Below, in pieces: positions 5,501 to 25,713 of a DNA stretch of 44,542 bases. Below the pieces are notes generated by a model. That model ran no database searches. It was not told where the DNA came from and was given only the letters and a program-made list of their open reading frames with translations. The DNA lies in contig MNVH01000069.1 of assembly GCA_001871595.1 (NCBI GenBank), positions 1 to 44,542 of the forward strand, read 5' to 3'. How positions within the stretch are numbered: the stretch's first letter is position 1; each line of letters starts with the position of its first letter. Source of the DNA: Candidatus Micrarchaeota archaeon CG1_02_55_22. Lineage in GTDB: Archaea > Micrarchaeota > Micrarchaeia > Norongarragalinales > UBA97. The translations under genes and the position numbers were made by a program.

Positions 5501-8500
5501 ATTACGATTCAGCTACCGCGCTAATCGCTACCAACGGCTCGCTCATAATCGATGGTACTGGCTTAATCATCATCCAGACTTCTGAAACGCAACTCTCCAC
5601 CAACAACGAGTACGATTTGACTGCGATAGTCCAGCTCTACGATGCGTCAACCGCTTCGACGCGGGGTGCGGTGGCGAACACGGTAGTCGAACTCGTTGCC
5701 GGCACCGGCGTGCTCGGGCAAGGCGCGAACCCGTCAATCAACGGCGATGGCTCGTCGGGAAGGGGCGAGAACGGCCAATACGTATTCTACGGCGTAAGGC
5801 CGCTTAGAACCGGGCAGCTACAATTCAGGGCTGGCGGCGACCTCGACCAACGCTTTTTAGAGGCGTCGAGCGGAATAATCAGGGTTTACCACAACGACTT
5901 CCTCTCGGTTTCACAGTCAAGCCTCTCGCTCTCGTGCGCCGATGCGACGCTCACAATCACGAACAACCTTGTTGAGGATAATGCCGACGTCTCGCTCGAG
6001 AGCGATTCGGAGTGCGTGGGTGCTGACGTCAACTCGTTCACCCTGACAGCTGGCGCGTCACGCCAAATAACGCTTTCTCCAGCAATAAACGGCGCTTGCA
6101 CACTCACCGTCTCGTCAACACACGGAATCAGCGTTTCGAGCACGCAAGTCCCGGTGTCGGTATCTTGCCAAGACCTAGCGCCAGTATGCAACTCTTTCAC
6201 CGTCGCATCAAGCGGCGGCGACTTGAACGGCTTGCCCGTAATCGCCGCAGGCGACACCGCACAGCTCGAGTTCTCTTTCACTAACGTCGGCGACTCGGCG
6301 TCAGTGAATTGCGGCAACGGACTTGACAACCAAGTCGTAGCATTGTCGGAAGGCAGCGGCACGGCATCGTGCGACTACTCAACGATAACTACCAGCTCGA
6401 CGCGTACACTCACCGTGGCAGCCGCAGGCGAGTTTTGTCCAACTGCCAGCGTGTTCGTTGTCGCTGGCACTCAACCCTCGTGCGTGAGCGCGCTCACCGT
6501 AGTGACGCCTTACCCCAACAGCCGGAGCGCCGCGGTAACCGCGACGTTTGAAAACCTTCCCCGCGAAATCAACACCGCGTCCTTCGAGTGCGACTCGACC
6601 GACCCGTTCCTTGAATTGCAGGACGAACCATTACAGTTCTCGCGCGACGGAACAATAGCCCAGGCAACCCACATCTGCGATTACACTGACCGACCCGGCA
6701 CGAGCTTTACTGCCCGCGCGCACTTGATTGGCGTTGGCACTACTTGCGACAACATCGCGGTCACTCTTGCGACAGGCAGCGGCGACTCTTGCCAGTTCGG
6801 CAACGACGAGGTTGCTTTCGACTCGTGCACCAACGGCTTGCCGTTCAAGTGCGGGGGCGATTCGGACAACCCCTCGCTCTCCGCGGATGCGACCTGCTGC
6901 CCTGCGGGCACGGTACTAGAGATGTCTCCCTCGCCGTACTGCCGCGACACCGCCCCAGAACCGGGAACGTGCGACGGCACGCAGGTAGGCCAGTGCCACG
7001 TAGAGACGAATGCAGCAGGAGGGCAAGCGCCCACTCCGTTGACGTGCACGGCGAACGGGCTCTCCTCGTCGCAGGCATGCTGCAACGCGGTGGCAGGATT
7101 TGCTTACCAATCCCAGATTATCGACGGCGCGAGGTACGACTTGTGCGTGCCGGTAGACCCGTCTACCACAGAAGATTGCACGGTGAGTGCGGCGGTGAAC
7201 GGTCAATCGTTCAACGTCAATGTCCCTTACGGCGAATGCTGGGCAAACCACCAAGGCCTCTCTTGCAGCGGTGACCCGACCGCTCCAGAAATCACTCCCT
7301 CGGACTCGTGCTGTCCCGCTGGACAAGCGTACGACTCGGACAGCCAGCGCTGCGTCACGCCGCCACCGGAAGGCACTACCCCGACTCCGCTGCCGGACGG
7401 CAATTGCGACGAGTTCACGCACAACGACGAGTGCCAATCAACTCCTGCAGGCCAAGTACAGAAGCCGTTACAGTGTTCGAACGGAGACTGGGTCACTGCA
7501 CCCGCGTGCTGCCCTGAAGGCTATGCCTACGGCACGGACACCGGCGGAATCGAGGCGTGTATCCCCATTCCCGCATCACTTACTGAACCGACTTGCACGT
7601 TTAGTGCGGCGCTCACATCCACCAGCGCTACGGCGCAAAGCTTTACCTTGACTGCAACGTTCAACCACTTGAACGCGTTTATTGGCTCAAACTACGAGGC
7701 TGAATTCAACTGCGACCAGGACAACGAACAGCCATTCACTCCAACGGGCCGCGTCACAAGCACGCAACCCGGCACGATTACGCGCACGTGCTCGCCCAAC
7801 CGCGCCTACTTTGATTACTACACGCGCCCGCTGGCACGACTCGTAATCGACAGCGACAACATTGACGAACGACGTACGATTGACTGCAACTTGAGGGCGG
7901 GCGACGGCGCTACGGGTTTGGTAACCGGAGAAGGCCAGCTCCTAGTTGAGGGCGTGGCCGCCAACGCGCACCTCGACTTTGCTACGAGCGTTCTCTACAA
8001 CGGCAACCAAGTACTCGGCTCGAACGCGGACGGCGCCTTGCTCGGCCCGCTCGACGGCGTGGGCTACAAAGTACAACTCACCAACGCCGCGTCATTCAGC
8101 GGACTGACAACCGACGACTTTACTCTGTATCTGGACTGCGAGGGCGACGGCACGGACGAAGCGCTCACGGGGATGACTCCCCTTGCAACGCAAGCATTCA
8201 CTTGGCAGGCCCGGTGCTCGTACTCGTCATTACAATCTTCGACTTTCCCGATAGTCCACCAAGCAGCAGCGTTGTACCGCGTGGAACGCAACGGCGTGCT
8301 GCAACCCCCCGACAGACGGGGCGGGATTGGAAGCGCGTTCACCGCGTTGAACGAGTTTGCCGAACCAGTTGCAGAATCCCTGCGAGTTGACTCGGTGCTC
8401 GGTGAACCAACCGTCGCATCACAGACGCGCAGCGTGCGCGTCAAGGCAACGTTCACCGGCATTCCCCGCCTCGGAAACGCTCAGGAGGAAGCGTTGATGG

Positions 8501-11500
8501 ACTGCGGCGACGGCGTTGAGACTAACCACATCTTGCTTGCTTCAGGCGCACGGGCGAACGCAGTTAAGGGCTGCAATTACAATTCCGACAGCGTTGCCAC
8601 GGCGCGCTACCCGTACGGTAAATTAGTTGCTAACCGTGCCACGAACGCCGAGGCACGCGTCCAACTAGAACTACCATTCACCCCTGCGGAGGAGGCGTTC
8701 ATCTGCGAGTTTACTGCTGATGGTTTACCCTCGTTCGTCGTAGAAGGCACGGACTCGGCCGACGGCGTGATAGTTGTCGGCGCTACGGGCAAGGACTCGT
8801 TCCGGCCCAACGCGGTAGTACACGGTGCGAACACCGTTCCCTCACAAGTGACTTTCGACTGCGGCAACGGCAAGACTGTTTCGGCAACGCTCGCGCCAAT
8901 GTCGTCCATCGGACTCGAGAAACGCGTTGAAGCATCGGCATCCACGACGTGCAAGTACTCTTTCGCAGACTTATCCGGCGAATCCGCCCGCGAGATAGAG
9001 GTCCGCGTGCTCGCCGACGGGCAGGACTGCGGCAACGCACCCGTACTAGTACAAACTGCCGACCGGCCCTCGCTCTCTTACTCGGTTTCACCCTCGCCCG
9101 CTGACGACGAGGAGCGCTTCGACTCGGCACGCATCCGCATCCTCGTTTCAAGCGGCTTCCCTGACAATTGGGCAACGCTCTCCCCGCAAGTGGAAGTAGA
9201 TTGCGGCGGCACTGCCGATTTACAGCGCGTGGCTCTACAGAACAACGGCGGCACGTACAGCGCGAGCACAATCTGCTCGTACTCGCCCGTCAACGCGGAC
9301 AGGAAGCGCACCGTCACAGTACAGCCGTTCGACTCGCTCTACGGACGATACCAAAGCGCGGACACGTCGTTCACGCAACTGCGCACTCCCGGCGCGACTG
9401 GAGAAGAAGGAACGACGGACGAATTCAAGGCGTGCACCTCGATTCTCCCGCTACTGTTGATGACGGGCATGGGCGACGACTTGTTCCCGACGACGAAGTC
9501 TCTCGGGCAGACGCTCGGAGTACGCGCCAAACAGCTGGCGGTCGCCGACTACCAGATAAGGAACGGCCGAGCGTACGTACTGCAAGCCGATGTGAACACT
9601 GGCACACCCTTGATAAAGTCCAGCCTCAACAGTGTAGAACTGGGCGTTGACCCTGTGTACACCGATTCGGCGTTTATCACGATAGCTAACGCGATTCCAA
9701 CCGGCCTCGTCGCCGGCGACACGGTCTCGTTCGACGTCCGGCCAGACAGCGACTGCATCGCAGCAGTAACAAGCGGCGGCTTAGAACAGATGCCGCACGT
9801 TACTCTCACCGCTAAAGGCACGGGCGAATTCACGCCGGAAGACTACGGCACTTACTCGACTAACGGTTGCAGAGGCGCAAAGGCGTGCGTGATAGAGTTC
9901 AAGTACGCCCCGAGTTGCGTGAACACCAAGATTTCAAGCAACGGGGATATCAGCGCGGCCAGCGTGAAGACCCCAATAGTCCACGTCAACGTTCGCGCGC
10001 AACTCGTCGGGGTCAACGCCGCAGCGCTTACTATTAACGCCAAGCCGATAACCACTACGCTTCCGGGTGCAGCATTCTTCTCCCCGCAGCCATTATCGCA
10101 ACACTTGCAGTATGCAGGCAAGACCGCGGTGCCGCTGTTGGTGGCCAACAACTTCCCGAAGGTTCAGGGCGAAGACGGCAAGACGGTAACCATAAACGGC
10201 GAGGCAATCGCCGCCGGAGAAAGCAAGCTAACTGACTTGACCACGCTCTCTTGGACTGCCAAGATAGACTCTTCGCAGGCCACGCTGAGCGTGACCCAAA
10301 AGAACATTGCCCCGCCTGACGCGCTTTCGCAGCTGTCCAAGTACGCGCCGATAGGCGTTGTTGCAGGCATTGACGACTCCAACCCCGACTGTTCGAGCGA
10401 ATTCTGTTCCGAGAGCCAGCTTGCTGCGTACTCGCGGGAAGTCAGGCAAAAGCTGGCACAGTTCCTTGAACGCACCAAGCAGCAACGCAACCCTGCAACC
10501 CACGCGCTCATCACGCGCGAGGAGTACGCCAAAGACATACTACGCGACTTGTCGCAGATGAGTTCCGACCAGAACAACGTGCAAGCGCTGCAGTCAGGAA
10601 GCCAGACTGGATTCAACCCCATGCTCTTGCTTGCAATGGGCGGGAGCGGCTTGGGCGACGAGTCGTGCAGCGCGGCACTGCAGTGCATGATGTACTTCAA
10701 GATGCTGGGCCAGTCCGGCGACAGCACGATGAACTCGCTGCTCCCGTTGGTCTTGTGCTCGCAAAAAAGCGTCCAGAAGGGCATCGCTGAAGGCGACTCG
10801 AGCATAATGACCAACATCCTGCTGCTGCAGATGCTTACCCCGATGGTGAAGAACGAAATCGAGGTATACGACTCGGCCGGCGACGCCAAGGACACAGTAC
10901 GCGCGGCGTGGCAAGCCACGCCCGCAAACGGCGCGGGCGAGCCGTTCACGCAGGCTAACGGGCCCTCAGTAAGCATTTCAAGCGAGCTTGTCGGCACAGT
11001 CCCAGTACGCGGGCCCCAAGGCTTGGGCACGTACGACGACGGATACAAACAATTAGAAGACGGCAAGGGATTCCCGTACGCCGACTGCTCTGGTACGTGC
11101 AAGGTTGCATACGACGGCGGGAAGCCCAACCTCGCTACTATTGGGAAGTACGGGCTAGAAATTGAATCACTGCCGCCAGAAAAGGACCAGCTCGCGAAGG
11201 AAAGGCAGGCGCTTTCCGAGTCGCTTGGCAAGGTCGAGGGCGTAGGCGTTCCCTTAACCGTAAAGCTCTCGCTCGGAGTGCCAGACGCTAATGCGCCTTC
11301 GACGATAACGATAAGCGTTGACGCAAACAATGAAATTTCGGTGGAGATAAAGCACCCTGACAACAACGAAGCACTGCCGAAGGACGAAATTGGGCGCAAG
11401 GACAGCGGCGAAACCAAGGAGATTACGTTGGCTGAGTGGGCGGGCAAGATACTGCGCGTGCTCGCGTTGCCGGAATACGGAAAAGCACAGCTTGAAGCTG

Positions 11501-13158
11501 AAGGCTACGTATTCGGAACGGTTAATGACTGCACTGTAACCGAGTATACGCTAGATAAGCTGGTATTTTCGTGCCCGACGCATGCCGCAACCGACCCTGC
11601 GACGGCGGACGGGGCCCTGCCGGCTAGACCAGCAACAGCCGCAGAAACTACTCAACCCGCGCCTATTGTAAACCCGTTCGAAGGCTTGAAAATAGATGGC
11701 CAGCAAGTTCCCGCGGATGGTAAGTTAACGCTCGAAGCAGGCAAGCTGTACCCGCTTGCTAAGCCCGCGATCTGCACGGACTTGAGCGTGTCTGGAATGG
11801 CGCCGTTCGAGGACCAAATTTACTTCATGCCCGATAACACGCGGGATAACGTGCTCTTGCTCGGCAAAACAACTCCGGAAAAAATAGCTGAAATTAAAGC
11901 AATACAAAAATACGACGTCCGGAGCGTCAAACTGGTCTGCAATTATGATACTGACCCGCAGTATTTCTTGCCTATCGAATTGGAACTAACTAGACCGACT
12001 TCGGCAGTCTATACTGCGGCCGCACCAAAAATAGTGAACGACGCGGTCGTGCTTTCTTCGAAATTGAAACCCGATTACAGCGTTGCCAACTGGTACTTGA
12101 CGTACCTATTGCCAGCACAAAACGGCGAACTTGATTTATCCTCGACCAATTCGCGGGATAGTTTAAGTGTTGCGCCGGGCCAGACGCGCGTGTGGGTTGA
12201 CATGTACGGCAACGAAATAACTAGGGTTACTAACACTCAGCAAGTAGCCCCGCCACAGGTATCAACTGCCGCCGGAGTGTGCGGCCCGATTACCGGCACG
12301 GATTACTCGGCCACGCCGGTTGATTTAACGCTCAAAAAGGCGGCGGTAATAGAGTACATTAACCGGTACTTGCTTCAACTCGAGGGCAACATAAACCTAG
12401 TGATGAACAATGGCGAGATTGATGACCGAAAGGCGTTTACGTACGGTACGAGCTATTGCGGCGGGCAACTCGGCGTGGGCTTCATCGCCGGCTTCAATAG
12501 AGATAGTTTGGACTGGAGCCTTAGTTATGGAACTATTAATGCCAATGGTGGCTTCACTTCGGGACAAGACCTTGTTTACACGGTAGTGCCCAACGAGAAG
12601 GTCAGTACCATAACTTACAGCTCAACTCGCACTAGTGACCAAGACCGTGCTGAATTCAAGGCGTATTCGGCTAAATACGCAGGCACGGGCGCCGGCAAGG
12701 TTGACACGAGCAATAACCTTGTATCTATGATACTAAAGAATAAACTCGCAATGTATCTGCCCGATGATGCCAAATTAGCAGGGTACGTGCTTAACGAAGC
12801 CGGAGTTGTTAGTAGGCAGTCTAGTACTGAGATATCCGCTAATAATCATCCTAACGGATACGGCTTGTATTATGATGGCCTTAGGGTTGCACAGGGATAT
12901 ATGCAAATCTGCCTTAACGGAGAAGCGTTCCCAGTAGCAAGCGCACAATCAATGGTGTTCGACCTGCAATCGTACCCAAGCTGCTCGAAGGACAACCAGG
13001 ACTGGTACCGCGTCGCGCTCACGCCAACAGTCACTACATCAACTGGTAAACCAATAATTAGCGACGTTACGCGCACCATCTACCACTGCCGTGCGACTCC
13101 GGCGGTGGGCGCGAAACAGTGTACGCTCGTCGCCACCAACGTCCTGACAGGAGAATGA
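2575..13158 (+). CDS. Giant (3527 aa) membrane-anchored surface protein with carboxypeptidase-regulatory/Ig-like repeats and tandem Cys-rich modules
   Basis: TTG start. N-terminal cytoplasmic segment then TM helix (FPVSALLLLLILAGLVLGIAFLAGG). About 5-6 repeats of the 'V.V.D..G.PVAGA.V.L.....G.T.SDG.A.F' type, then Cys-rich modules with a CCP(A/E)G.AY signature. Confidence 0.85.
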   Translation: MAEAVKQPEGNILSDFYHGLEDHYYGACDWLEERGLKIYEYWVEPLEKSGVPSFPVSALLLLLILAGLVLGIAFLAGGINFVPDQATSLAVSVYNDAGEPIAGASLQLLVNGETFTGVTDSSGRSTFNNIPSNQNAALQVSKDGFQTTAQSVRTGQELSKSVNLQADTRPETKVRVILQDDSSGEPVAGATLRYIDSNKGVVRAVSGADGSALLSFRDSSVLVSITQGDYRDKQQTIASNSNGVVIRLTRIGGNGQVSPTPPPCAGSQCGQPDKGSVIVSVFDESGAPVAASVDLYRRGSSTSLGSRNTFEGVASYRSIIEGGTSVSARAVPVDEAYEEGTSDYVTVVENGEVDLQITVNRKDSPDTPLNSLEVEVRNQADESAISGATVNLYSASGDKRLVTSKVTGSDGKALFNVVQDAGFIAVAYKDGFVSSNREDLAANDLYGRIYLREIIIGNKASVRARVYDLDGVTPVAGAEAVVTYSDGVPFGPSSQLTDELGEAVREDLPVAQDLRVKAFYGALTGESSTFRLSAETEKLVTLTLEKPTASVTIRVINSTDNTAVVGALASVTSSVDTETPVKVSACVTGTTGVCTMNNVTALETVQLNISIRGFLPKTMALNLQPNEEGVTHTFRTEDFIDERLADQRRLSVRLYQADCATEITANQKVEKGRVYCVALDYNIPPADVGHPSGIFLRVDGSGVVGESNYWINNFDKHSDLALDVDQLTIRRGSSFATSDYSCNDDDANTIDESSLKWINYEYLQKQGNSVTRAYVFISPSATENEKFDLNYFSYALDADEKWYRSPLDSGLGTAQSAGSRDWCTAAVKTITRTITEGSAAYSDDAAVSLSMAKLNADGRGTFSRTGRVNTGENVTIRVFGRLFSQRNSVSVTLRLTDRNNVARNYAELKDFVLLDPKTLAPIDGTQARLSGSEDEAVIDPLGIARIAANNYEFVLQANATTLSPIASSRVHAVVNDYDSATALIATNGSLIIDGTGLIIIQTSETQLSTNNEYDLTAIVQLYDASTASTRGAVANTVVELVAGTGVLGQGANPSINGDGSSGRGENGQYVFYGVRPLRTGQLQFRAGGDLDQRFLEASSGIIRVYHNDFLSVSQSSLSLSCADATLTITNNLVEDNADVSLESDSECVGADVNSFTLTAGASRQITLSPAINGACTLTVSSTHGISVSSTQVPVSVSCQDLAPVCNSFTVASSGGDLNGLPVIAAGDTAQLEFSFTNVGDSASVNCGNGLDNQVVALSEGSGTASCDYSTITTSSTRTLTVAAAGEFCPTASVFVVAGTQPSCVSALTVVTPYPNSRSAAVTATFENLPREINTASFECDSTDPFLELQDEPLQFSRDGTIAQATHICDYTDRPGTSFTARAHLIGVGTTCDNIAVTLATGSGDSCQFGNDEVAFDSCTNGLPFKCGGDSDNPSLSADATCCPAGTVLEMSPSPYCRDTAPEPGTCDGTQVGQCHVETNAAGGQAPTPLTCTANGLSSSQACCNAVAGFAYQSQIIDGARYDLCVPVDPSTTEDCTVSAAVNGQSFNVNVPYGECWANHQGLSCSGDPTAPEITPSDSCCPAGQAYDSDSQRCVTPPPEGTTPTPLPDGNCDEFTHNDECQSTPAGQVQKPLQCSNGDWVTAPACCPEGYAYGTDTGGIEACIPIPASLTEPTCTFSAALTSTSATAQSFTLTATFNHLNAFIGSNYEAEFNCDQDNEQPFTPTGRVTSTQPGTITRTCSPNRAYFDYYTRPLARLVIDSDNIDERRTIDCNLRAGDGATGLVTGEGQLLVEGVAANAHLDFATSVLYNGNQVLGSNADGALLGPLDGVGYKVQLTNAASFSGLTTDDFTLYLDCEGDGTDEALTGMTPLATQAFTWQARCSYSSLQSSTFPIVHQAAALYRVERNGVLQPPDRRGGIGSAFTALNEFAEPVAESLRVDSVLGEPTVASQTRSVRVKATFTGIPRLGNAQEEALMDCGDGVETNHILLASGARANAVKGCNYNSDSVATARYPYGKLVANRATNAEARVQLELPFTPAEEAFICEFTADGLPSFVVEGTDSADGVIVVGATGKDSFRPNAVVHGANTVPSQVTFDCGNGKTVSATLAPMSSIGLEKRVEASASTTCKYSFADLSGESAREIEVRVLADGQDCGNAPVLVQTADRPSLSYSVSPSPADDEERFDSARIRILVSSGFPDNWATLSPQVEVDCGGTADLQRVALQNNGGTYSASTICSYSPVNADRKRTVTVQPFDSLYGRYQSADTSFTQLRTPGATGEEGTTDEFKACTSILPLLLMTGMGDDLFPTTKSLGQTLGVRAKQLAVADYQIRNGRAYVLQADVNTGTPLIKSSLNSVELGVDPVYTDSAFITIANAIPTGLVAGDTVSFDVRPDSDCIAAVTSGGLEQMPHVTLTAKGTGEFTPEDYGTYSTNGCRGAKACVIEFKYAPSCVNTKISSNGDISAASVKTPIVHVNVRAQLVGVNAAALTINAKPITTTLPGAAFFSPQPLSQHLQYAGKTAVPLLVANNFPKVQGEDGKTVTINGEAIAAGESKLTDLTTLSWTAKIDSSQATLSVTQKNIAPPDALSQLSKYAPIGVVAGIDDSNPDCSSEFCSESQLAAYSREVRQKLAQFLERTKQQRNPATHALITREEYAKDILRDLSQMSSDQNNVQALQSGSQTGFNPMLLLAMGGSGLGDESCSAALQCMMYFKMLGQSGDSTMNSLLPLVLCSQKSVQKGIAEGDSSIMTNILLLQMLTPMVKNEIEVYDSAGDAKDTVRAAWQATPANGAGEPFTQANGPSVSISSELVGTVPVRGPQGLGTYDDGYKQLEDGKGFPYADCSGTCKVAYDGGKPNLATIGKYGLEIESLPPEKDQLAKERQALSESLGKVEGVGVPLTVKLSLGVPDANAPSTITISVDANNEISVEIKHPDNNEALPKDEIGRKDSGETKEITLAEWAGKILRVLALPEYGKAQLEAEGYVFGTVNDCTVTEYTLDKLVFSCPTHAATDPATADGALPARPATAAETTQPAPIVNPFEGLKIDGQQVPADGKLTLEAGKLYPLAKPAICTDLSVSGMAPFEDQIYFMPDNTRDNVLLLGKTTPEKIAEIKAIQKYDVRSVKLVCNYDTDPQYFLPIELELTRPTSAVYTAAAPKIVNDAVVLSSKLKPDYSVANWYLTYLLPAQNGELDLSSTNSRDSLSVAPGQTRVWVDMYGNEITRVTNTQQVAPPQVSTAAGVCGPITGTDYSATPVDLTLKKAAVIEYINRYLLQLEGNINLVMNNGEIDDRKAFTYGTSYCGGQLGVGFIAGFNRDSLDWSLSYGTINANGGFTSGQDLVYTVVPNEKVSTITYSSTRTSDQDRAEFKAYSAKYAGTGAGKVDTSNNLVSMILKNKLAMYLPDDAKLAGYVLNEAGVVSRQSSTEISANNHPNGYGLYYDGLRVAQGYMQICLNGEAFPVASAQSMVFDLQSYPSCSKDNQDWYRVALTPTVTTSTGKPIISDVTRTIYHCRATPAVGAKQCTLVATNVLTGE

Positions 13159-14778: not shown

Positions 14779-15900
14779 TTGAAGATACCCAACCCTTACG
14801 ATTCGATTGACTACCGTTGGCTCATGGCCGTACCGGTCTTGCTAGTTATTGTCAGCCTAGTCTTCTTCGCCCCGCACTTGGAGAAGGGAATCGACTTGAA
14901 GGGCGGTTTGCTGGTAACGTTGCAGACGAGCCAGCCAATCGACACCGTTGCTTTGAAAGGCGTTCTTACCAAGTACGGCAACGTCGAAGTCCGCCAGTAC
15001 TCTAGCCCGGCAGGAAACGGTGTTGAAGTCGAGCTCGAGAACAACGCGGCGCTTGAAGACGCGGGCGACGCGGTAGGGCGCTTGTCGGGGTTGCAGCGCG
15101 ACTTAGAGTCAACTACTCTAGCATTACAGCAAGCAGAGGAGGATGGTTTGCCGACGCTCGAGTTACAGCAGCGCATCGACTCGCAATCGCTAGCCATAAT
15201 CGCCGAGGCGAACACTGCGCTCACTGCAATAGGATCTAGCAAGCGCGTCAGCGAAGCGGGCGGGGCGAGCGACATTGTCGGTACCGAGTTCGCCGCCTCG
15301 AAAGCGAGATTGAGAGCGAACGTGATGGCAGACATCGCTTCGGTTGCGAGCTACGACGCGTACTCCTTCCGTGAAGTGGGTTCGAGCCTCTCCAAATTCT
15401 TTGTCTCGAAAACGCAGGAAATCATCTTGTACTCATTCATCCTCACCGCGATAGTCGTGCTCGTCGTCTTCCGCAGCCTCGTGCCGAGTTTGGCAGTCAT
15501 TTTCGGCGCAGTCGCCGACGTTTCGCTCACAGTGGGCGTGATGGCAATACTCGGAATACCGATTACGCTCGCCGCGATTGCCACGCTCTTGATGCTTATC
15601 GGCTTCTCTTTAGACACGGACGTCATGCTTACCATGCGCGTCTTTAGGCGCAGGGAAGGCCGCGCCCGTGACCGCGCTTTTGAGGCCATGAAGACGGGCT
15701 TCTTAATGAACGCGACGACGACGGGCGCGTTCGGAGTGCTATTCCTACTGGGCTTGTGGCTCCAGCTTGATGTCTATCGTACAATCGGTGCTATCGCGGT
15801 TATAGGCGGAGTAGTGGACTTTATTGCCACGTGGGGCTTTAACGCCGGACTTATCCTGTGGTTCATCGAGAAGCAAGAAAAACAAAAGACGCTGGCTTGA
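14779..15900 (+). CDS. secF: Protein translocase subunit SecF
   Basis: TTG start; N-terminal TM, 'GIDLKGGLLVTLQ', and the C-terminal SecF/RND core 'SLAVIFGAVADVSLTVGVMAILGIPITLAAIATLLMLIGFSLDTDVML'. Confidence 0.93.
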   Translation: MKIPNPYDSIDYRWLMAVPVLLVIVSLVFFAPHLEKGIDLKGGLLVTLQTSQPIDTVALKGVLTKYGNVEVRQYSSPAGNGVEVELENNAALEDAGDAVGRLSGLQRDLESTTLALQQAEEDGLPTLELQQRIDSQSLAIIAEANTALTAIGSSKRVSEAGGASDIVGTEFAASKARLRANVMADIASVASYDAYSFREVGSSLSKFFVSKTQEIILYSFILTAIVVLVVFRSLVPSLAVIFGAVADVSLTVGVMAILGIPITLAAIATLLMLIGFSLDTDVMLTMRVFRRREGRARDRAFEAMKTGFLMNATTTGAFGVLFLLGLWLQLDVYRTIGAIAVIGGVVDFIATWGFNAGLILWFIEKQEKQKTLA

Positions 15901-15902
15901 AA

Positions 15903-17525
15903 ATGGATTATTCTTCGCTTGCAGGTAATTGGCGCATCCGCCTCGTCGCGCTAGTCCTCATTCTCGCGCTCGGCGTGCTCTTCCTGCGCGACGCGAACCC
16001 TTCGACGGTTGATTTGAACTTGGGAATCGAGTTCGTGGGCGGAGTCAGGATTCCGGTGACGCTCGAGCGCAGTGTTGACCAGGCAACCATGGACTTGATT
16101 ATCGAGACGATGAAGCAGAGAGTCAACAAGTTTGGTTTGTCGCAAGCGGTTGTCAGGCCGTTAGGGGATAACGAGATACTCGTAGAGATTCCGCAGGCCG
16201 ACGAACGCGCGATTGACTCTGTTCAGCGCCTCTTGCGGGAGCAGGGCAAGTTCGAGGCAATTATTGACGGTAAAGTCGCGCTTGACGGCAAGGACATCAT
16301 CGCTTCAACGGTTGGTGGACCGAGTGAGAGCGTGAGCGCGAACGGCGACGGTTCTTACGGCTGGCAAATCGGCTTCACTGCGACGGTTGAGGGAGGCAAG
16401 CGCTTCTCGAGCGCGGCACTGGGCAAACCGCGTTACCCTGTATACATGTTCTTGGACCGGCCGAGCAATGCACTCGTCATCATTCCAGAAGAGTTCATGA
16501 ACTCGTCAAGCACTCCTGCGTTGCTGTTGGGCACGCTCGAGGACGCGGCGGCAAAGGAAGGCGATTCGATAAGGGTTTTGACGCCTAAAGAGGTCTCTAA
16601 CGAGTCGATAGCCAATTATACTGAAGCAGTCGTCTCAACTAGCTTCACCAAGACAAAGGAATTCAACGTTCTTGTCAAGGCAGGCTTCCGCGAAGAGGCG
16701 AACGCGTCGCGCAAGCTCATCGTGAGAGACGACGCAGAGCTCATCCCAACGCTTCGGCAGGGTACGAACGGGTTGCTCGTTGACGCGTGGGTGGCAATAG
16801 GTTTGACCAGCAGCCCCGAACTACAGCCCTCGCTTGCTGAAGGCAGGACTGCCGGCGTGCCTAGCTATATTATCACGGGCAGCGGGCGCGGCGAGACGCC
16901 GGACGAACAGCACGACAGCGCGGTGACCGAGCTCAAGCTTACGAAGATTGCCTTGACGCAAGGACGCTTGCCGGTTAGCACCGTCATCGGCAGCACATAC
17001 ACGATTGCCCCGTCACTCGGTAGGCAGTTCTTGACTTACAGCGCTATAGGCGTGATTTTTGCCATCCTAGTCGTCGCATCGATGATTATCCTGCGTTACC
17101 GCAACGTATGGCTTGCCATACCGATAGTCATCATTAACGTCATCGAGATGCTTATCACGCTCGCCATAGTCGGCAACTTTACGCTCGACTTGGCTGCAAT
17201 GGCCGGTATCATCACGCTTATTGGTACGGGTGTGGATGACCAAATCATCATTACGGATGAGTTGCTCAAGAAGAAGCGCGGCGAGTCTGGCGAGGAAGAA
17301 GAATTGGGCGAGTCGAACATCAAGCAGCGCATCGGCAAGGCGTTCGAAATAATAATGACCAACGCGCTCGTCGCAATCGTCGCCATGCTGCCGCTCCTGT
17401 TGAGCGGCATAGTAGAGATAATGGGCTTTGCTCTGGCGTACGTCATCGGCGTGCTCGTCGGCGTCTTCATCACCCGGCCCGCGTACGGGTTGTTAGTCGG
17501 CGAAATCGTGAAGAAGCACGGCTAG
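15903..17525 (+). CDS. secD: Protein translocase subunit SecD
   Basis: ATG at 15903, directly after the secF stop. 'DLNLGIEFVGGVRIPVTLE' and 'AAMAGIITLIGTGVDDQIIITDE' are SecD motifs. Confidence 0.93.
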   Translation: MDYSSLAGNWRIRLVALVLILALGVLFLRDANPSTVDLNLGIEFVGGVRIPVTLERSVDQATMDLIIETMKQRVNKFGLSQAVVRPLGDNEILVEIPQADERAIDSVQRLLREQGKFEAIIDGKVALDGKDIIASTVGGPSESVSANGDGSYGWQIGFTATVEGGKRFSSAALGKPRYPVYMFLDRPSNALVIIPEEFMNSSSTPALLLGTLEDAAAKEGDSIRVLTPKEVSNESIANYTEAVVSTSFTKTKEFNVLVKAGFREEANASRKLIVRDDAELIPTLRQGTNGLLVDAWVAIGLTSSPELQPSLAEGRTAGVPSYIITGSGRGETPDEQHDSAVTELKLTKIALTQGRLPVSTVIGSTYTIAPSLGRQFLTYSAIGVIFAILVVASMIILRYRNVWLAIPIVIINVIEMLITLAIVGNFTLDLAAMAGIITLIGTGVDDQIIITDELLKKKRGESGEEEELGESNIKQRIGKAFEIIMTNALVAIVAMLPLLLSGIVEIMGFALAYVIGVLVGVFITRPAYGLLVGEIVKKHG

Positions 17526-17788
17526 CGATAGGCTTCGTCGTGGTGGGCGTAGTTTTGTACTACTACTGTCTTTCGACTTTCATCTATAGAGTATAACAAG
17601 ATGAAAGACGAGTCGATGTGAACCCGCCAGAGTCCCTGCAAAGGCGCTTTTAACGGCTTGAAGCGGTACGGATTTTCGAGAACTTGATTTACTTTCTTTC
17701 CTACCGCAACAAAAGCCACGTTATTCTTCTTTTGTAGTGCCGCAATCTTGGCTCGGGCGGTCTGTGTCAGTTCAAGTGCGTAGGCCAA
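17522..17788 (-). CDS. RelE-family toxin
   Basis: ALELTQTARAKIAALQKKNNVAFVAVGKKVNQVLENPYRFKPLKAPLQGLWRVHIDSSFILLYSIDESRKTVVVQNYAHHDEAYR is a classic RelE fold pattern. Confidence 0.85.
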   Translation of the reverse strand: MAYALELTQTARAKIAALQKKNNVAFVAVGKKVNQVLENPYRFKPLKAPLQGLWRVHIDSSFILLYSIDESRKTVVVQNYAHHDEAYR

Positions 17789-17794
17789 GTGGCA

Positions 17795-18028
17795 TCACTT
17801 CAAGCCGAAATAAGCGTCAACATCTTTCACCTTGAAACGCTTTTCTTTTTCTATGCGTTTCATTTCATCGACGAACTCCGGCCGGTACTCTGGCTCAAGG
17901 ATGCTCTGCGCGTATTCCCGTACCACGAAGTCTATAGCTTGCGACTTGTCCTTCAAGCCCTCCTTGGCCTTGACTACGTTGAGAATCCGGTTCGCGTCCT
18001 CGGAAATGTTTACCATTGCCTTCACCAT
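17795..18028 (-). CDS. DUF2683-type antitoxin
   Basis: VNISEDANRILNVVKAKEGLKDKSQAIDFVVREYAQSILEPEYRPEFVDEMKRIE, immediately upstream of the RelE gene. Confidence 0.8.
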   Translation of the reverse strand: MVKAMVNISEDANRILNVVKAKEGLKDKSQAIDFVVREYAQSILEPEYRPEFVDEMKRIEKEKRFKVKDVDAYFGLK

Positions 18029-19374: not shown

Positions 19375-19926
19375 CTACTCTTTCTTTTTGTCGGCGAGTT
19401 GCTTGCCGATTTCGGCGCGGCGCTTGAGCTTTTCCTCGAATTCGGCGTACTCTTCGGGCTTCATCACGTTCTTGAGGATGTAGGCCGAGTACTGTTGTGC
19501 TTGCGAGGAGATATCTAACAGCAGGGTGTGGGCTTCCGAGAGATTGAGGCGGATTTCGGGGGGGTTTAGTATTTCGACGCCGACGGGGCCGTAACGCATT
19601 GTGAGTTCAGCGAGCTTGGCAAAATCTTCCACGAGCGCGGTTACTTCGGCGCTCGTGGAGTAGGAGATAAGCGTGTTTTCGGCGGACTCTTCGGCGGCAA
19701 GGCCCTTCTCGTCTGTCACGCGCTTGTAGGGGGCGAGTATTTCACCCTTGCAGTAGAGCACGCCCTTCTCGTTTGCGAGGCGGTCGATGAATTCGATTAG
19801 CGAGTTCTTTACCGATTCTTCCTCGCGTCCGTGGGCATCAAAGTAGAGGAGGCAGTGTACTGCTCCGTGTTTGGTTGTTTCGGCGATGACGCGTTCGAGG
19901 TCGGCTTCGTTGTATTCCTTTGCCAT
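19375..19926 (-). CDS. Conserved-looking soluble protein of unknown function
   Basis: 183 aa ORF with highly charged C-terminus; no family recognised. Confidence 0.7.
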   Translation of the reverse strand: MAKEYNEADLERVIAETTKHGAVHCLLYFDAHGREEESVKNSLIEFIDRLANEKGVLYCKGEILAPYKRVTDEKGLAAEESAENTLISYSTSAEVTALVEDFAKLAELTMRYGPVGVEILNPPEIRLNLSEAHTLLLDISSQAQQYSAYILKNVMKPEEYAEFEEKLKRRAEIGKQLADKKKE

Positions 19927-19967: not shown

Positions 19968-20903
19968 TCAGCCGTAGGAGAGGCGTGCGCCCGTCGGCCG
20001 CAGCTCGGAGGCGAGGGATTGGGCGAAGCCGGTTGAGAGTTGGGAAAAGAGCGCTAGGATGCCCGATGGTGGTTCCTGTAGTACGCACAATGCGGGCGTG
20101 CCGTCGTAGGAGACGTTGCCCATTGCTGCTGCGATGCGCAACGCGTCACTGCGCGTTGCCACATCGTCTACGAGGCCGATTTTTTGGGCTTGCGTTGCCG
20201 AGAGTACGCGCGCGTCGAGCGCTTGTGCCTCGAATAGTTTTTCGTTGAGCCTGCCTTTGCGCGCGGCGCGCACGTCGTTGGCAAAATTCTCGCCCGACTC
20301 GTTAATAATCGCTTCAAGTATGGCGCGTTCTTCAGTAGTGATGTTGCGGTAGGGCGCGCCCATGTCCTTGACGTCGCCGTGCTGGATGGACTCCATCGAG
20401 ATACCGAGCTTTTCAAGCAGGCCGGCGTAGTTCAAGAGAGTAGCGCGGGCGCCAATGCTGCCCGTCAAAGTGTTCGGGTTGGCGACGACGCGATCGGCTG
20501 CCGAAGCAACGTAATAACCGCCACTCGCCGCGACCTCGCCCAAATATGCCACAATGGGCTTTTTGGCGGTTCTGACGGCTGTAAAGGCTTCCTGGCTTGC
20601 GACTGCGCCGCCGCCGGGTGAGTTTATTACCAAGAGCACGGAGCCGACGTCGTCGTTTTCGTCTGCTGCCCGCAGTTGGCGTTCAAGCTCTTGCGGCTGT
20701 GCTGCGGAGTCGTAGAAAGCGGCGTGTTCGAGCGTGATTTCGCCGTCGAGTGTGATGATGCCGACGCACGACGCGTTTTTGTCGTTCGAGAGGAAGCCCC
20801 TGCCGAGGCTGGCGTAATCTGCTGTTGCGAGTGCGATTGCGATTAGTGCGACTGCGACGAAGGCCAGTACGTAGAGGCCGGTGCGGGATTGGGCGTTTTT
20901 CAC
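19968..20903 (-). CDS. sppA: Signal peptide peptidase SppA-like serine protease (S49), membrane anchored
   Basis: GTG start at 20903 (VKNAQSRTGLYVLAFVAVALIAIALA TM). Catalytic core 'INSPGGGAVASQEAFTAVRTAKKPIVAYLGEVAASGGYYVASAADRVVANPNTLTGSIG'. Confidence 0.9.
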   Translation of the reverse strand: MKNAQSRTGLYVLAFVAVALIAIALATADYASLGRGFLSNDKNASCVGIITLDGEITLEHAAFYDSAAQPQELERQLRAADENDDVGSVLLVINSPGGGAVASQEAFTAVRTAKKPIVAYLGEVAASGGYYVASAADRVVANPNTLTGSIGARATLLNYAGLLEKLGISMESIQHGDVKDMGAPYRNITTEERAILEAIINESGENFANDVRAARKGRLNEKLFEAQALDARVLSATQAQKIGLVDDVATRSDALRIAAAMGNVSYDGTPALCVLQEPPSGILALFSQLSTGFAQSLASELRPTGARLSYG

Positions 20904-20958: not shown

Positions 20959-21465
20959 ATGGATGCGTTGCAGTTGTTGGCATTCGTTTTGCCGGCGTAT
21001 GTAGCGAACGCGAGCCCGGTTGTCTTCGGCGGGGGCACGTCGGTGGATTTCAAGCGCTTGCTCGGCGGGAAACGCGTTTTCGGCGATGGAAAGACGTGGC
21101 GCGGCCTTCTCGCAGGAGTGGTTTTCGGTACTTTTACGGGCTTTGCTTTGGCATTGCACCCAGCGCTCTTTCTGCCTTCGCTCTTATTCCGCGAGAGGAT
21201 GATTGTCGCGTTGTTGCTTTCAGTCGGTACGATGGCGGGCGACTTGGCTGGGAGCTTCGTGAAAAGGCGTTTAGGCATTGCTGCCGGAAGCCGCCACGAG
21301 TTCTTCGACCAGCTCTTGTTCTTGGGTTTCGCTCTCGCCGCGGCCAGCATCTATATAGTGCCGTCGCTCGAAGAGATTGCCTTGCTCGTCGTTGCGACCT
21401 ATGTATTGCACAAGGCGGCTAACTGGTTGGCGCACGTGGTGCGGCTCAAGCGCGTCCCGTGGTAA
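20959..21465 (+). CDS. carS: CDP-archaeol synthase (CarS/DUF46)
   Basis: MDALQLLAFVLPAYVANASPVVFGGGTSVDFKRLLGGKRVFGDGKTWRGLLAGVVFGTFTG...GDLAGSFVKRRLGIAAGSRHEFFDQL; characteristic P-A-Y-x-A-N, GDGKTWRG and GD.xGSFxKRR motifs. Confidence 0.93.
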   Translation: MDALQLLAFVLPAYVANASPVVFGGGTSVDFKRLLGGKRVFGDGKTWRGLLAGVVFGTFTGFALALHPALFLPSLLFRERMIVALLLSVGTMAGDLAGSFVKRRLGIAAGSRHEFFDQLLFLGFALAAASIYIVPSLEEIALLVVATYVLHKAANWLAHVVRLKRVPW

Positions 21466-21920
21466 CCTTGGCTTCAAAATCGCTATCGTTTCTTGCACGA
21501 TTCTTTCCGTTGATGGCGCTGTTGTATCTAGCCGTGCTGGTCTTCCCGCAGCCTTGGCTCTACGCGGGCTTGGCAGGAATCGAGGGCGCGTTTTTGGAGG
21601 CGTCGGGCGTGCCGGTTGTGGTTGACGGCGCGTTGTTGCACGCGGGCGGAGCGTCATTCGAAATCGTTGCAGAATGCTCGGGCCTCATCATGGTCGCCAT
21701 GCTTGTAGCGTTGTTTTTTGCGAGCGGTTGCCGTAGGTGGGGGTGGCTCGCGGGCGGCATCGTTTTTCTCCTGTTGTTCAACGTGGCACGGCTGTGGTTG
21801 ACGCTTTACGCGGGTGCGGCTTGGGGCCAGAGCGCGCTGGGCGTTGTGCACCCGGTGTTGTGGTTCGTTGACGCCGGAATCGTGCTCGCATGGTGGGCGA
21901 AGATGGAGGCGTTGCTGTGA
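21459..21920 (+). CDS. Archaeosortase/exosortase-family transpeptidase
   Basis: Multi-TM protein with ordered C/R/H motifs: 'VAECSGLIMVAMLVALFFA', 'LLFNVARLWLTLY', 'VVHPVLWFVDAGIVLAWW'. GTG start overlaps the carS stop by 7 nt. Confidence 0.85.
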   Translation: MVTLASKSLSFLARFFPLMALLYLAVLVFPQPWLYAGLAGIEGAFLEASGVPVVVDGALLHAGGASFEIVAECSGLIMVAMLVALFFASGCRRWGWLAGGIVFLLLFNVARLWLTLYAGAAWGQSALGVVHPVLWFVDAGIVLAWWAKMEALL

Positions 21921-21990: not shown

Positions 21991-22254
21991 GTGGTTTGTT
22001 TGGCGGACGTGAACGTGAACTTGAAGGTGAAAAGGTATACCAACCGTGTCTTGGGGGTCGTCAAGGAGAAATACGGCTTGAAGGACAAGTCCGAGGCGCT
22101 CGACAAGTTTGCCGAGCTCTACGGCGGCGAGTTCGTGGATTCGGAGGTCGGGGACGAGCTCGTGCGCGACATCATTCGGAGCACCAGCGCGCATGTGAAG
22201 AAGCACGGGTTCAGGAAGATGTCTCTCGAGGAGCTTGAAAGGCTTGGCGAGTGA
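21991..22254 (+). CDS. DUF2683-type antitoxin
   Basis: ADVNVNLKVKRYTNRVLGVVKEKYGLKDKSEALDKFAELYG; paralogous to 17795..18028 (shared V...KEKYGLKDKS core). Start could be TTG at 22000. Confidence 0.8.
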   Translation: MVCLADVNVNLKVKRYTNRVLGVVKEKYGLKDKSEALDKFAELYGGEFVDSEVGDELVRDIIRSTSAHVKKHGFRKMSLEELERLGE

Positions 22255-22539
22255 GTGTCAATGCCGTTCGACTTCGATTTTACTGACGAACTGAAGCTCA
22301 CGCTGTCGCGCCTGGCCAAGCGCAACAAGCCGCTTGCCGAGGAAGTGAAGAAGAAAGTGCGGCAGGTCACGGCTTCGGATGGCGAGACGGTGGAACACTA
22401 CAAGAACCTGCGCCACGACTTGAAAAACTACAAGCGCGTGCACGTTGGAAGCTTCGTCCTCTTTTTCAGGGTCTTCAAGGAAGAAAATTTCATCCTGTTC
22501 GACAGGTTGGCGCACCACGACGACGCGTACAAGCGTTAG
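22255..22539 (+). CDS. RelE-family toxin
   Basis: FDFTDELKLTLSRLAKRNKPLAEEVKKKVRQV...HYKNLRHDLKNYKRVHVGSFVLFFRVFKEENFILFDRLAHHDDAYKR; C-terminal AHHD(D/E)AY shared with 17522..17788. Confidence 0.85.
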   Translation: MSMPFDFDFTDELKLTLSRLAKRNKPLAEEVKKKVRQVTASDGETVEHYKNLRHDLKNYKRVHVGSFVLFFRVFKEENFILFDRLAHHDDAYKR

Positions 22540-22540
22540 G

Positions 22541-23863
22541 CTAACGGAGCGCGTCGCACACTTGTGGTATGGAGAGGAGTTTTTCTTCGCCGCTATTCAG
22601 GTCGCGCAGGGTTGCCTTGCCTTCCTTGATTTCGTTGGGCCCGATGATGAGCGCGTATTTAGCTCCGCGTTTTACTGCGTAAGCGAGGTTTTTCGATACG
22701 CCGCGACCGGCAAGGTCGATTCCTGTGTTGATTCCGGCGCTGCGCAGTTGTTGGCAGGCGCGGATTGCTGGTAAGGCGTCGCCGATTGGGATGACGAAGA
22801 CTGCGAGACCTGTTCTTTCTCCCAAGGTAGTTCCTTGTGCCTTGAGTGCTTCTAGGAGGACATCGAGTCCGAAGCTTATGCCGACTGCCGGAACGTTTCT
22901 CTCGGCGCCGCCGGATTCCTTGACGAAGCCGCCTATTAGTTCGTCGTAGCGGCCTCCGGCGCAAATCGAGGAAGTTATGCCTATCTTAGCACCATTGTTT
23001 AGGAAGCCTTCGAACACCATTCCGGTATAGTAGTTTAGTCCGCGGGCGAGGGTGGGGGAAAAGACGAGCTTGTCCGCGCAACCGTACTCTTTCGCGTAGG
23101 AAAAGAATTCGTTTAGTTCGGCTAGGCCTGCTTTCGCGTCGTCGTTTGCTGCAAGCGCAGTGAGAGCTTCCAGCGTTGCTTGTGGTGAGAGCGTGGAGAG
23201 GACTCTTTGAGCGACTGGAGCGGGGAGTTGTTTTTCTTCGAGTTCTTTCTTTACTGCGTTTTCACCGATTTTTTCGAGTTTGTCGAGTGAGAGGATGACG
23301 TCGGAAAGCATTTCGCGCGGCACGCCCGCACCAATGAGGAGCCCGTTGAGGAGCTTGCGGTTGTTTACTTTAAGCGAGTAGTTGAGACCCAGCCCTGAAA
23401 GGATGGATGCGGCGAGGGAGGCGAGTTCGGCGTCGGCGGCCAGTGAAGCAGTACCCATGGTGTCGGCGTCGCACTGCGAGAACTCGCGGTAGCGGCCTTT
23501 CTTTAGGGGTCCGTCGCGCCACACGCTCGCTATTGCGTAGCGTTTGAACGGCATTGCTAACGAATTGTTTTCGGCGACGAAACGGCAGAGGGGCACGGTG
23601 AGGTCGTAGCGCAATCCCAAATCACGCCCGCCTTGGTCTTTGAAGGAATAGGTTTCTTTGAGTATTTCGTCTCCGCCGGCGAATTTCGCGGTAAGCACGG
23701 CCAAATTCTCGAATGCGGGCGTTTCTAGGGGCTCGAACCCGTAGCGTTCGAATTGTTCACGGATTGTCTGGATTATTGCGTCTCGAAGGCGTTTTTCGCT
23801 TCCGCTGAAGTCGCGCGTGCCGCGCGGGGCCTTGAACTTGTTTTCGTTAGTTTCTTCAGCCAT
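22541..23863 (-). CDS. hisS: Histidyl-tRNA synthetase
   Basis: KAPRGTRDFSGSE; 'SFKDQGGRDLGLRYDLTVPLCRFVA', 'KRYAIASVWRDGPLKKGRYREFSQCDADTMG', 'ARGLNYYTGMVFE'; class II HisRS motifs. Confidence 0.96.
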   Translation of the reverse strand: MAEETNENKFKAPRGTRDFSGSEKRLRDAIIQTIREQFERYGFEPLETPAFENLAVLTAKFAGGDEILKETYSFKDQGGRDLGLRYDLTVPLCRFVAENNSLAMPFKRYAIASVWRDGPLKKGRYREFSQCDADTMGTASLAADAELASLAASILSGLGLNYSLKVNNRKLLNGLLIGAGVPREMLSDVILSLDKLEKIGENAVKKELEEKQLPAPVAQRVLSTLSPQATLEALTALAANDDAKAGLAELNEFFSYAKEYGCADKLVFSPTLARGLNYYTGMVFEGFLNNGAKIGITSSICAGGRYDELIGGFVKESGGAERNVPAVGISFGLDVLLEALKAQGTTLGERTGLAVFVIPIGDALPAIRACQQLRSAGINTGIDLAGRGVSKNLAYAVKRGAKYALIIGPNEIKEGKATLRDLNSGEEKLLSIPQVCDALR

Positions 23864-24667
23864 TCAGCATACCGCCCTACACGCGTATTCTGCTTGCGTT
23901 TTTAGGGCGCGGGCCGAGAATCGAACTCGGTACTTAGGATCCACAGTCCCACGTGATACCAATTCACTACACGCGCCATTGTCTAGCTTGGGGTACCGGA
24001 GCGCCCAATTCCGTATTTTCTCCACGTATTTGGGGCTATTCCAGCCTATAACTTCACAGAACCTGAAGAGGTTTCCATAACCGCACAGCTGTATTGACCA
24101 ATATTTGCCGTCAAACCAGCGGCTTGCTTTCAAGCCTAGCATCGAAAGGATTTCCGCGGTATCCTCGATTAATAATTTTGAAGCAGAGGTCACATTAATG
24201 TTTGGATAACTGGCAGGACGACCGTTCTTTGGCAGGAAAGATATACTGCCATCGGTGTCAAAATACCCACGCAAGAATGCCGCAAGAATCTCTTGGTTGT
24301 TTACCTTTAGCACATCAGGCACGCGTATCCCGCGTTTGTTCCCTGTTGGAATACCGACTACATTGCGCTTGAAGGTCCATAGCGCCTTCGAGTAGAACTC
24401 GAACCCGTAACTATCCGAATACTCCCTGATTTGCACGTCGGCATTGTAAACGGTTTTGTACAAGGTTCTAACGAAGTTATCGTAGAATTCTCGCTCGTCA
24501 ATCTTAGATCCTTTGAGGCGATACTCGTATTTCTTGTCGGACAGGAACCCGTCGCCTAGGTGCATGCCTATTTCTTCCGCGAGCGCGGGGGTCATCTCTT
24601 GCGGCAGCTTCAAGTTCTTTCTTTTGTCGAAGATGCTGAAGGAAACTACGGACGTATCGAGGGCCAA
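23864..24667 (-). CDS. Free-standing LAGLIDADG homing endonuclease; reading frame continues through the tRNA-His gene
   Basis: Two LAGLIDADG helices (LAEEIGMHLGDGFLS; ILAAFLRGYFDTDGSI). TTG start. Recognisable domain ends near 'GWNSPKYVEKIRNWALRYPKL', just before the tRNA. Confidence 0.85.
   Translation of the reverse strand: MALDTSVVSFSIFDKRKNLKLPQEMTPALAEEIGMHLGDGFLSDKKYEYRLKGSKIDEREFYDNFVRTLYKTVYNADVQIREYSDSYGFEFYSKALWTFKRNVVGIPTGNKRGIRVPDVLKVNNQEILAAFLRGYFDTDGSISFLPKNGRPASYPNINVTSASKLLIEDTAEILSMLGLKASRWFDGKYWSIQLCGYGNLFRFCEVIGWNSPKYVEKIRNWALRYPKLDNGACSELVSRGTVDPKYRVRFSARALKTQAEYACRAVC
23906..23977 (-). tRNA. tRNA-His (anticodon GTG), G-1 encoded, no intron
   Basis: Minus strand GGCGCGTGTAGTGAATTGGTATCACGTGGGACTGTGGATCCTAAGTACCGAGTTCGATTCTCGGCCCGCGCC. 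Acceptor, D-arm (GTG/CAC), anticodon arm (TGGGA CTGTGGA TCCTA) and T-arm (CCGAG TTCGATT CTCGG) all fold; G-1:C73 is present, with one T6/C67 mismatch. Confidence 0.93.
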
Positions 24668-24885: not shown

Positions 24886-25713
24886 TCACGCCAGTAACAG
24901 GTAGAGTCCGGCTGCGGCGAGGCCGCCGACTATTGAAGCGGCGAGGTTGACGATGTCGTTGTCGAGCCACCGGTGGCCACGTATGAGAACGTTTTTCTCG
25001 TTATCCGTAAAGGAGCGCTCGGTTTCTTTCCGGTGGTGCTTGCTGTAGTACATTACTTGTACGGTAGCGCCGAGGAACGAGTCTGCGAGCGAGCCTATGA
25101 ACGCTGCTGCGCCGGATATTGCCAGCACCATGAGAAGGGGGTAAGTGGATACGGGTGTGCCGAAGAGGTTGATGCTGGCGGAGGCGACTGCGCCGATGAA
25201 CACGCCGGCGATGACGGTGATTGCGAGGCCGATTGTTGATACTGCGCCCGAGGTTCCTATTGGCACGGACTTGAGGTTGGTGATGAGCAGGGGCTTGCGT
25301 TTACCTAGGATGCCTAGCTCTGTTGCCCAAGTGTCGGCGGTGACTGTGCCTATTACGCCGAGGAAGGCGTAGTAGATGACTGGCTCGTGGTAGTAGAAGA
25401 ATGCTACTGCGAGTATTCCGACGATTCCGCCGTTGGCCAGAACTTGCCAGAAATCTCTGGTGCCGCCTTTAGCGAATTGTTTGACTACGTCCGCCTTCTG
25501 TGATTCCTTGTAACGCGTGAGGATTATGGAGGAGACAAGGAACGCGGCGAGGACAACGAACCAATCCGTTCCGCCTAGCCAGAACACGCTTACGCCTAGG
25601 AGCACGGCTGCGAGTGTGCCCGTTGCCGAAAGCGCTTCTTTACGGAAGGCGTAGATTGCGAGTGCTAGCGAGATTATTGCGCCTGCGAGTATGCGGTGGA
25701 ATTCAGTGACCAT
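24886..25713 (-). CDS. DUF92/TIGR00297-family integral membrane protein
   Basis: 'RKEALSATGTLAAVLLGVSVFWLGG', 'GIVGILAVAFFYYHE', 'GTVTADTWATELGILGKRKPLLITNLKSVPIGTSGAVSTIG' are DUF92 motifs. Confidence 0.9.
   Translation of the reverse strand: MVTEFHRILAGAIISLALAIYAFRKEALSATGTLAAVLLGVSVFWLGGTDWFVVLAAFLVSSIILTRYKESQKADVVKQFAKGGTRDFWQVLANGGIVGILAVAFFYYHEPVIYYAFLGVIGTVTADTWATELGILGKRKPLLITNLKSVPIGTSGAVSTIGLAITVIAGVFIGAVASASINLFGTPVSTYPLLMVLAISGAAAFIGSLADSFLGATVQVMYYSKHHRKETERSFTDNEKNVLIRGHRWLDNDIVNLAASIVGGLAAAGLYLLLA

Follow-up and report, generated by a model that had tools for sequence, protein, structure and literature searches.

A conserved carS-archaeosortase gene pair and a plausible LPSWPE-tailed substrate in the Norongarragalinales (Micrarchaeota)

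Archaeosortases have been studied by experiment in haloarchaea, where the enzyme attaches a lipid (PMC7157517). Processing by Haloferax ArtA depends on both PssA and PssD, with archaetidylethanolamine proposed to supply the nucleophile through its amino group (PMC7157517); direct use of archaetidylserine is an open point of this model. The artA gene adjoins pssA in several methanogens, as reported by Haft and coworkers and relayed in PMC7157517. Envelope building in DPANN archaea is largely unknown, and no archaeosortase study in Micrarchaeota was found in the literature searched. The locus described here belongs to the order 'Ca. Norongarragalinales', which includes LFW-144_1, the type of 'Ca. 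Norongarragalina meridionalis' (PMC8561730), and its study offers a named enzyme together with a candidate substrate and signal.

The window, i.e., the whole stretch of 44,542 nucleotides analysed (contig C67 of a 1.19 Mb genome, 82% complete), carries carS on its forward strand at 20959..21465, encoding a CDP-archaeol synthase of 168 aa. CarS scores 146.8 bits with PF01864, as the one match in the genome, and 161.6 bits with NF003114, exceeding the equivalog cut-off of 148 bits and thus reaching an equivalog-level score for CDP-archaeol synthase. The archaeosortase gene (21459..21920, forward strand; 153 aa) has a GTG start at 21459 and its stop codon at 21918-21920. The carS stop is the TAA at 21463-21465, and the two genes are coupled by a 7-nt overlap, GTGGTAA (21459..21465, forward strand), read from the sequence; a TTG located 2 nt past the carS stop is a possible alternative start. 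The first-pass annotation had described a CarS-like gene ending at 21465 and an exosortase-like gene from 21459 with Cys (ECSG), Arg (NVAR) and His (VHP) motifs. Both genes are borne out by Pfam and NCBIfam scores and by the overlap, and the motifs correspond to C73, R111 and H131, which are invariant in 20 relatives.

The 153-aa protein lies inside the exosortase/archaeosortase superfamily, as had been proposed, with 41.3 bits against a cut-off of 25.7 for PF09721 and 30.6 bits against 23 for the TIGR04178 signature, the latter matched by all 20 relatives at E<=0.1. Besides Cys73, Arg111 and His131, the alignment of these relatives (A2) has Asn108, Trp135 and Asp138 invariant, and the conserved Cys, Arg and His fall in membrane-embedded helices, as is characteristic of the superfamily (alignment and helical model). 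The AlphaFold2 model (mean pLDDT 95.6) comprises four or five long helices, with a small sheet of three strands immediately preceding the Cys; a search of solved structures with this model returned none similar. None of the named NCBIfam subfamily cut-offs is reached by the window protein, its score for ArtE (TIGR04124) being 22.1 bits vs a cut-off of 95. Weak similarity to ArtA (TIGR04125) occurs in 13 of 20 members, the window protein not among them, and neither the equivalog score nor the PGF-CTERM substrates that define ArtA were found, the signal here being LPSWPE-like; these cut-offs were compared for the window protein only, the other relatives being judged by weak E-values. On profile comparison, the carS-linked archaeosortase is classed here as a new subfamily, specific to the Norongarragalinales.

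The distribution of the pair was followed in 29 Norongarragalinales genomes and 266 sampled genomes from other Micrarchaeota orders. CarS is present in 28 of the 29 order genomes, and in 25 of these 28 an archaeosortase gene lies directly 3' of carS on the same strand, across 20 genera and seven families; five of the 25 pairs were missed by Pfam and recovered by reading downstream open reading frames or with the A2 profile. The exceptions (G019, G020, G021) form a single genus, g20, in which carS has no archaeosortase after it, and one further genome (G003) has an archaeosortase fragment only (contig C54), with CarS not found. In the 25 genomes the nearest possible archaeosortase start, the start codons being unproven, lies between about -29 and +93 nt relative to the carS stop, in most cases between -7 and +15; the -7 layout of the window is possible in eight of them. 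Every order genome with a complete archaeosortase keeps it beside carS. The conserved adjacency for which the first-pass annotation proposed a search is hence not confined to one genome, and its recurrence, with both genes on one strand, in 25 genomes from seven families means that the pairing is not due to chance. One scan of named genomes yielded relatives from the Norongarragalinales only. Complete members in the order score at least 143 bits with the A2 profile, and the 266 genomes of other orders gave nothing above 42 bits. The exosortases of other Micrarchaeota families were considered as members of the same subfamily and rejected: they are XrtW/XrtA-like proteins of ~500-540 aa (of ~530 aa in families f8 and f9; L094, L095) and, where checked, do not lie beside carS.

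A candidate substrate was sought among protein C-termini. The 3527-aa surface protein of the window (2575-13158, forward strand), which has a carboxypeptidase-regulatory-like domain, was rejected because it has an N-terminal TM segment and no C-terminal TM or tail. In agreement with the first-pass annotation, no substrate is encoded within the window; the candidate sits elsewhere in this genome, on other contigs. In a scan of the open reading frame C-termini of sampled stretches, covering part of each genome, two homologous proteins from different taxonomic families ended in ALPSW-TM-Arg; other C-terminal TM proteins in these stretches had no common motif. Profile searches found this giant protein family as a single copy in 28 of the 29 order genomes and not at all in the 266 genomes of other orders. 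It has the same spread as the carS-linked archaeosortase, i.e., the order only; this joint restriction is a single phylogenetic event and not repeated co-gain. Complete copies have ~1250-1800 aa; a signal at the N-terminus and a single TM at the C-terminus occur in nearly all of them and are essentially the only hydrophobic stretches of the full-length proteins inspected. In G006 and G017 the gene and the carS pair are ~8-9 kb apart; the copy in the window's genome is divided between contigs, with its C-terminal part at C25:1-1070 and an upstream part on C29.

The tail consensus is [LIV]-x-[LIV]-P-[SAG]-[WFVI]-P-[ED], followed by ~17 hydrophobic residues, Arg (in 25 of 26 tails) and a short, usually basic end; G009 and G010 have acidic extensions instead. 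Across the 26 tails, the motif carries 3.0 bits of information per column, compared with 2.18 for the folded domain and 1.5 for the linker. The combination that marks substrates in this superfamily, a motif, a TM and basic residues on an exported protein, was thus found in 26 genomes, and the shared signal anticipated by the first-pass annotation occurs in genomes with the archaeosortase; that the two are cognate is the likely interpretation. A search with a tail-only profile (A4) gave one strong match per genome and nothing else clear, the other matches being weak, with E of 0.002 or more. Judged from these profiles, the giant protein is likely to be the single plausible substrate of the carS-linked enzyme.

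With regard to the lipid, nearly every order genome has CarS as its sole PF01864 match. The exception, G001, has a second copy (L053, G001:C2), seen in no other order genome and without an adjoining archaeosortase. A single copy must serve bulk phospholipid synthesis, and the term "dedicated" originally applied to this lipid unit was overstated, CarS being general. A CDP-alcohol transferase (PF01066) occurs in 28 of 29 order genomes, usually once; typing in G000, G026 and G014 gave TIGR00473 scores above cut-off, so that these three have the PssA homologue of an ArtA-type pathway. The PssD homologue of such a pathway was not found: PS decarboxylase (PF02666) gave no match in any of the 29 order genomes, with Haloferax and Methanocaldococcus controls positive. 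The proposed analogy to Haloferax lipid anchoring thus stands as regards the PssA-type enzyme and fails as regards the decarboxylase, so the Haloferax archaetidylethanolamine route appears unlikely in the Norongarragalinales. Since no decarboxylase was found and archaetidylserine also bears an amino group, archaetidylserine would be the likeliest donor.

On balance, it is fairly probable that carS and the archaeosortase gene form a coupled pair whose enzyme cleaves the giant protein at its LPSWPE tail and links it to an amino-bearing archaeal phospholipid. In the proposed mechanism, carS and the order-specific archaeosortase would be translationally coupled; the giant protein would first be exported by Sec, and the archaeosortase would then recognise the LPSWPE-TM-Arg signal and cleave near the LPSWPE motif through its Cys/Arg/His site. 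The new C-terminus would be handed from the Cys to the amino-bearing phospholipid, which a PssA-type enzyme would build from the CDP-archaeol made by CarS. Against this explanation, genus g20 keeps its tail, there LPGWPT-TM-RIKK, despite having no carS-linked archaeosortase, and a second-type exosortase would have to substitute. It is also weakened by the joint restriction to one order, which counts as one event, by the confinement of the signal to a single protein family, by the general role of CarS and by the acidic extensions in G009 and G010. A more specific version, an anchoring system of one enzyme and one substrate in which CarS is co-translated with the archaeosortase, the sole target is the giant, order-defining envelope protein bearing the new LPSWPE-CTERM signal and undecarboxylated archaetidylserine is the donor, is put forward tentatively and is rather doubtful.

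The wider gene neighbourhood bears on whether a lipid is involved. Around carS often lie a secF-like (14779..15900, forward strand; PF02355, 74.6 bits) and a secD-like gene (15858..17525, forward strand; PF02355, 55.7 bits), both of a wider export block conserved by synteny, the syntenic gene u19375 (19375..19926, reverse strand; no Pfam match) and, divergent from carS, an S49-family membrane peptidase gene (19968..20903, reverse strand; PF01343, 136.8 bits; GTG start at 20903 taken by reading the sequence). By tblastn, the S49 peptidase gene is conserved next to carS in roughly half of the order; u19375 adjoins carS in most of it, g20 included, and some members of family f4 have a Prok-JAB gene after the archaeosortase. 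Such a block would fit a setting of export and surface processing. An unlikely alternative is that the archaeosortase processes the giant protein without lipid, the protein being released or otherwise held, and that the adjacency to carS belongs to an inherited membrane/export block. It agrees with CarS being a single general copy, on which account the adjacency may reflect expression coupling only, and with the partial conservation of the secF-secD, S49 and u19375 block round carS even without an archaeosortase: g20 keeps carS-u19375-secD and lacks the enzyme (G019, G020; L298, L329). It is opposed by the haloarchaeal archaeosortase, which attaches lipid by experiment (PMC7157517), and by the carS-archaeosortase linkage itself, the tightest of the neighbourhood, kept by all complete archaeosortases whereas the S49, secDF and hisS neighbours vary more.

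Several further features of the window were recorded. Just downstream of the archaeosortase, 21991-22539 (forward strand) encodes a ParE-family toxin (PF05016) and an 87-aa protein that matched nothing in Pfam, likely a toxin-antitoxin pair; another ParE-type toxin, this one with a DUF2683 partner, is encoded at 17522-18028 (reverse strand). A LAGLIDADG-domain protein (23864-24667, reverse strand), possibly a homing endonuclease, adjoins a hisS-like gene (22541-23863), and a DUF92 membrane protein is encoded near the carS locus at 24886-25713 (reverse strand). The DUF92 gene and hisS stay near carS in family f1 only.

It is improbable that the LPSWPE tail is a mere conserved TM anchor of one protein family and that the carS-linked archaeosortase has other, undetected substrates. 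The idea arises because the signal is seen on that family only; g20 retains the tail without the carS-linked enzyme, and other C-terminal signals were scanned in part of each genome. The tail nevertheless has the layout of known sorting signals (PMC7157517), a motif after a variable linker, then a TM and a near-invariant Arg at the C-terminal end, and the genome-wide tail profile search, as described above, gave no second strong signal.

About half of the order has a second exosortase type, unlinked to carS (L021, L022, L023, L024). That this enzyme handles the giant protein, leaving a different role to the carS-linked one, is suggested by g20, which has the giant protein and the second type and not the carS-linked enzyme, and is very improbable given that roughly half of the order gave no match to the second type, the near-complete G002, G015, G022 and G026 among them, each with the giant protein.

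Taken together, the profiles and alignments show that the gene pair is real and extends across the order; its archaeosortase belongs to a new subfamily, for which a single protein is the plausible substrate. A genome-level prediction on the lipid donor follows for the Norongarragalinales and, because no PS decarboxylase was found, the order would provide a natural test of direct archaetidylserine use by archaeosortases.

Among known systems, ArtE, ArtB, ArtD, pacearchaeosortase, heimdallarchaeosortase and XrtX (NCBIfam) share a similar small size and a sub-threshold similarity with most members; unlike in these, no cut-off was reached (tested for the window protein) and no common signal was identified. 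The artA-pssA pairs of Methanosarcina and other methanogens, as far as relayed from Haft and coworkers in PMC7157517, likewise place an archaeosortase next to a phospholipid synthesis gene. The gene linked here is instead carS, one step earlier, CarS making the CDP-archaeol that PssA uses, and pssA of the window's genome is on another contig. The ArtA/PGF-CTERM system of Haloferax volcanii differs in that the motif here is LPSWPE-like with one substrate found per genome, carS takes the place of pssA as the linked gene, no PS decarboxylase was found and no member reaches the ArtA cut-off, relatives of the window protein being judged by E-values. Like that system, which depends on lipid genes working from CDP-archaeol (PMC7157517), the present one combines a Cys/Arg/His enzyme of the exosortase family with a tripartite C-terminal signal on a predicted surface protein.
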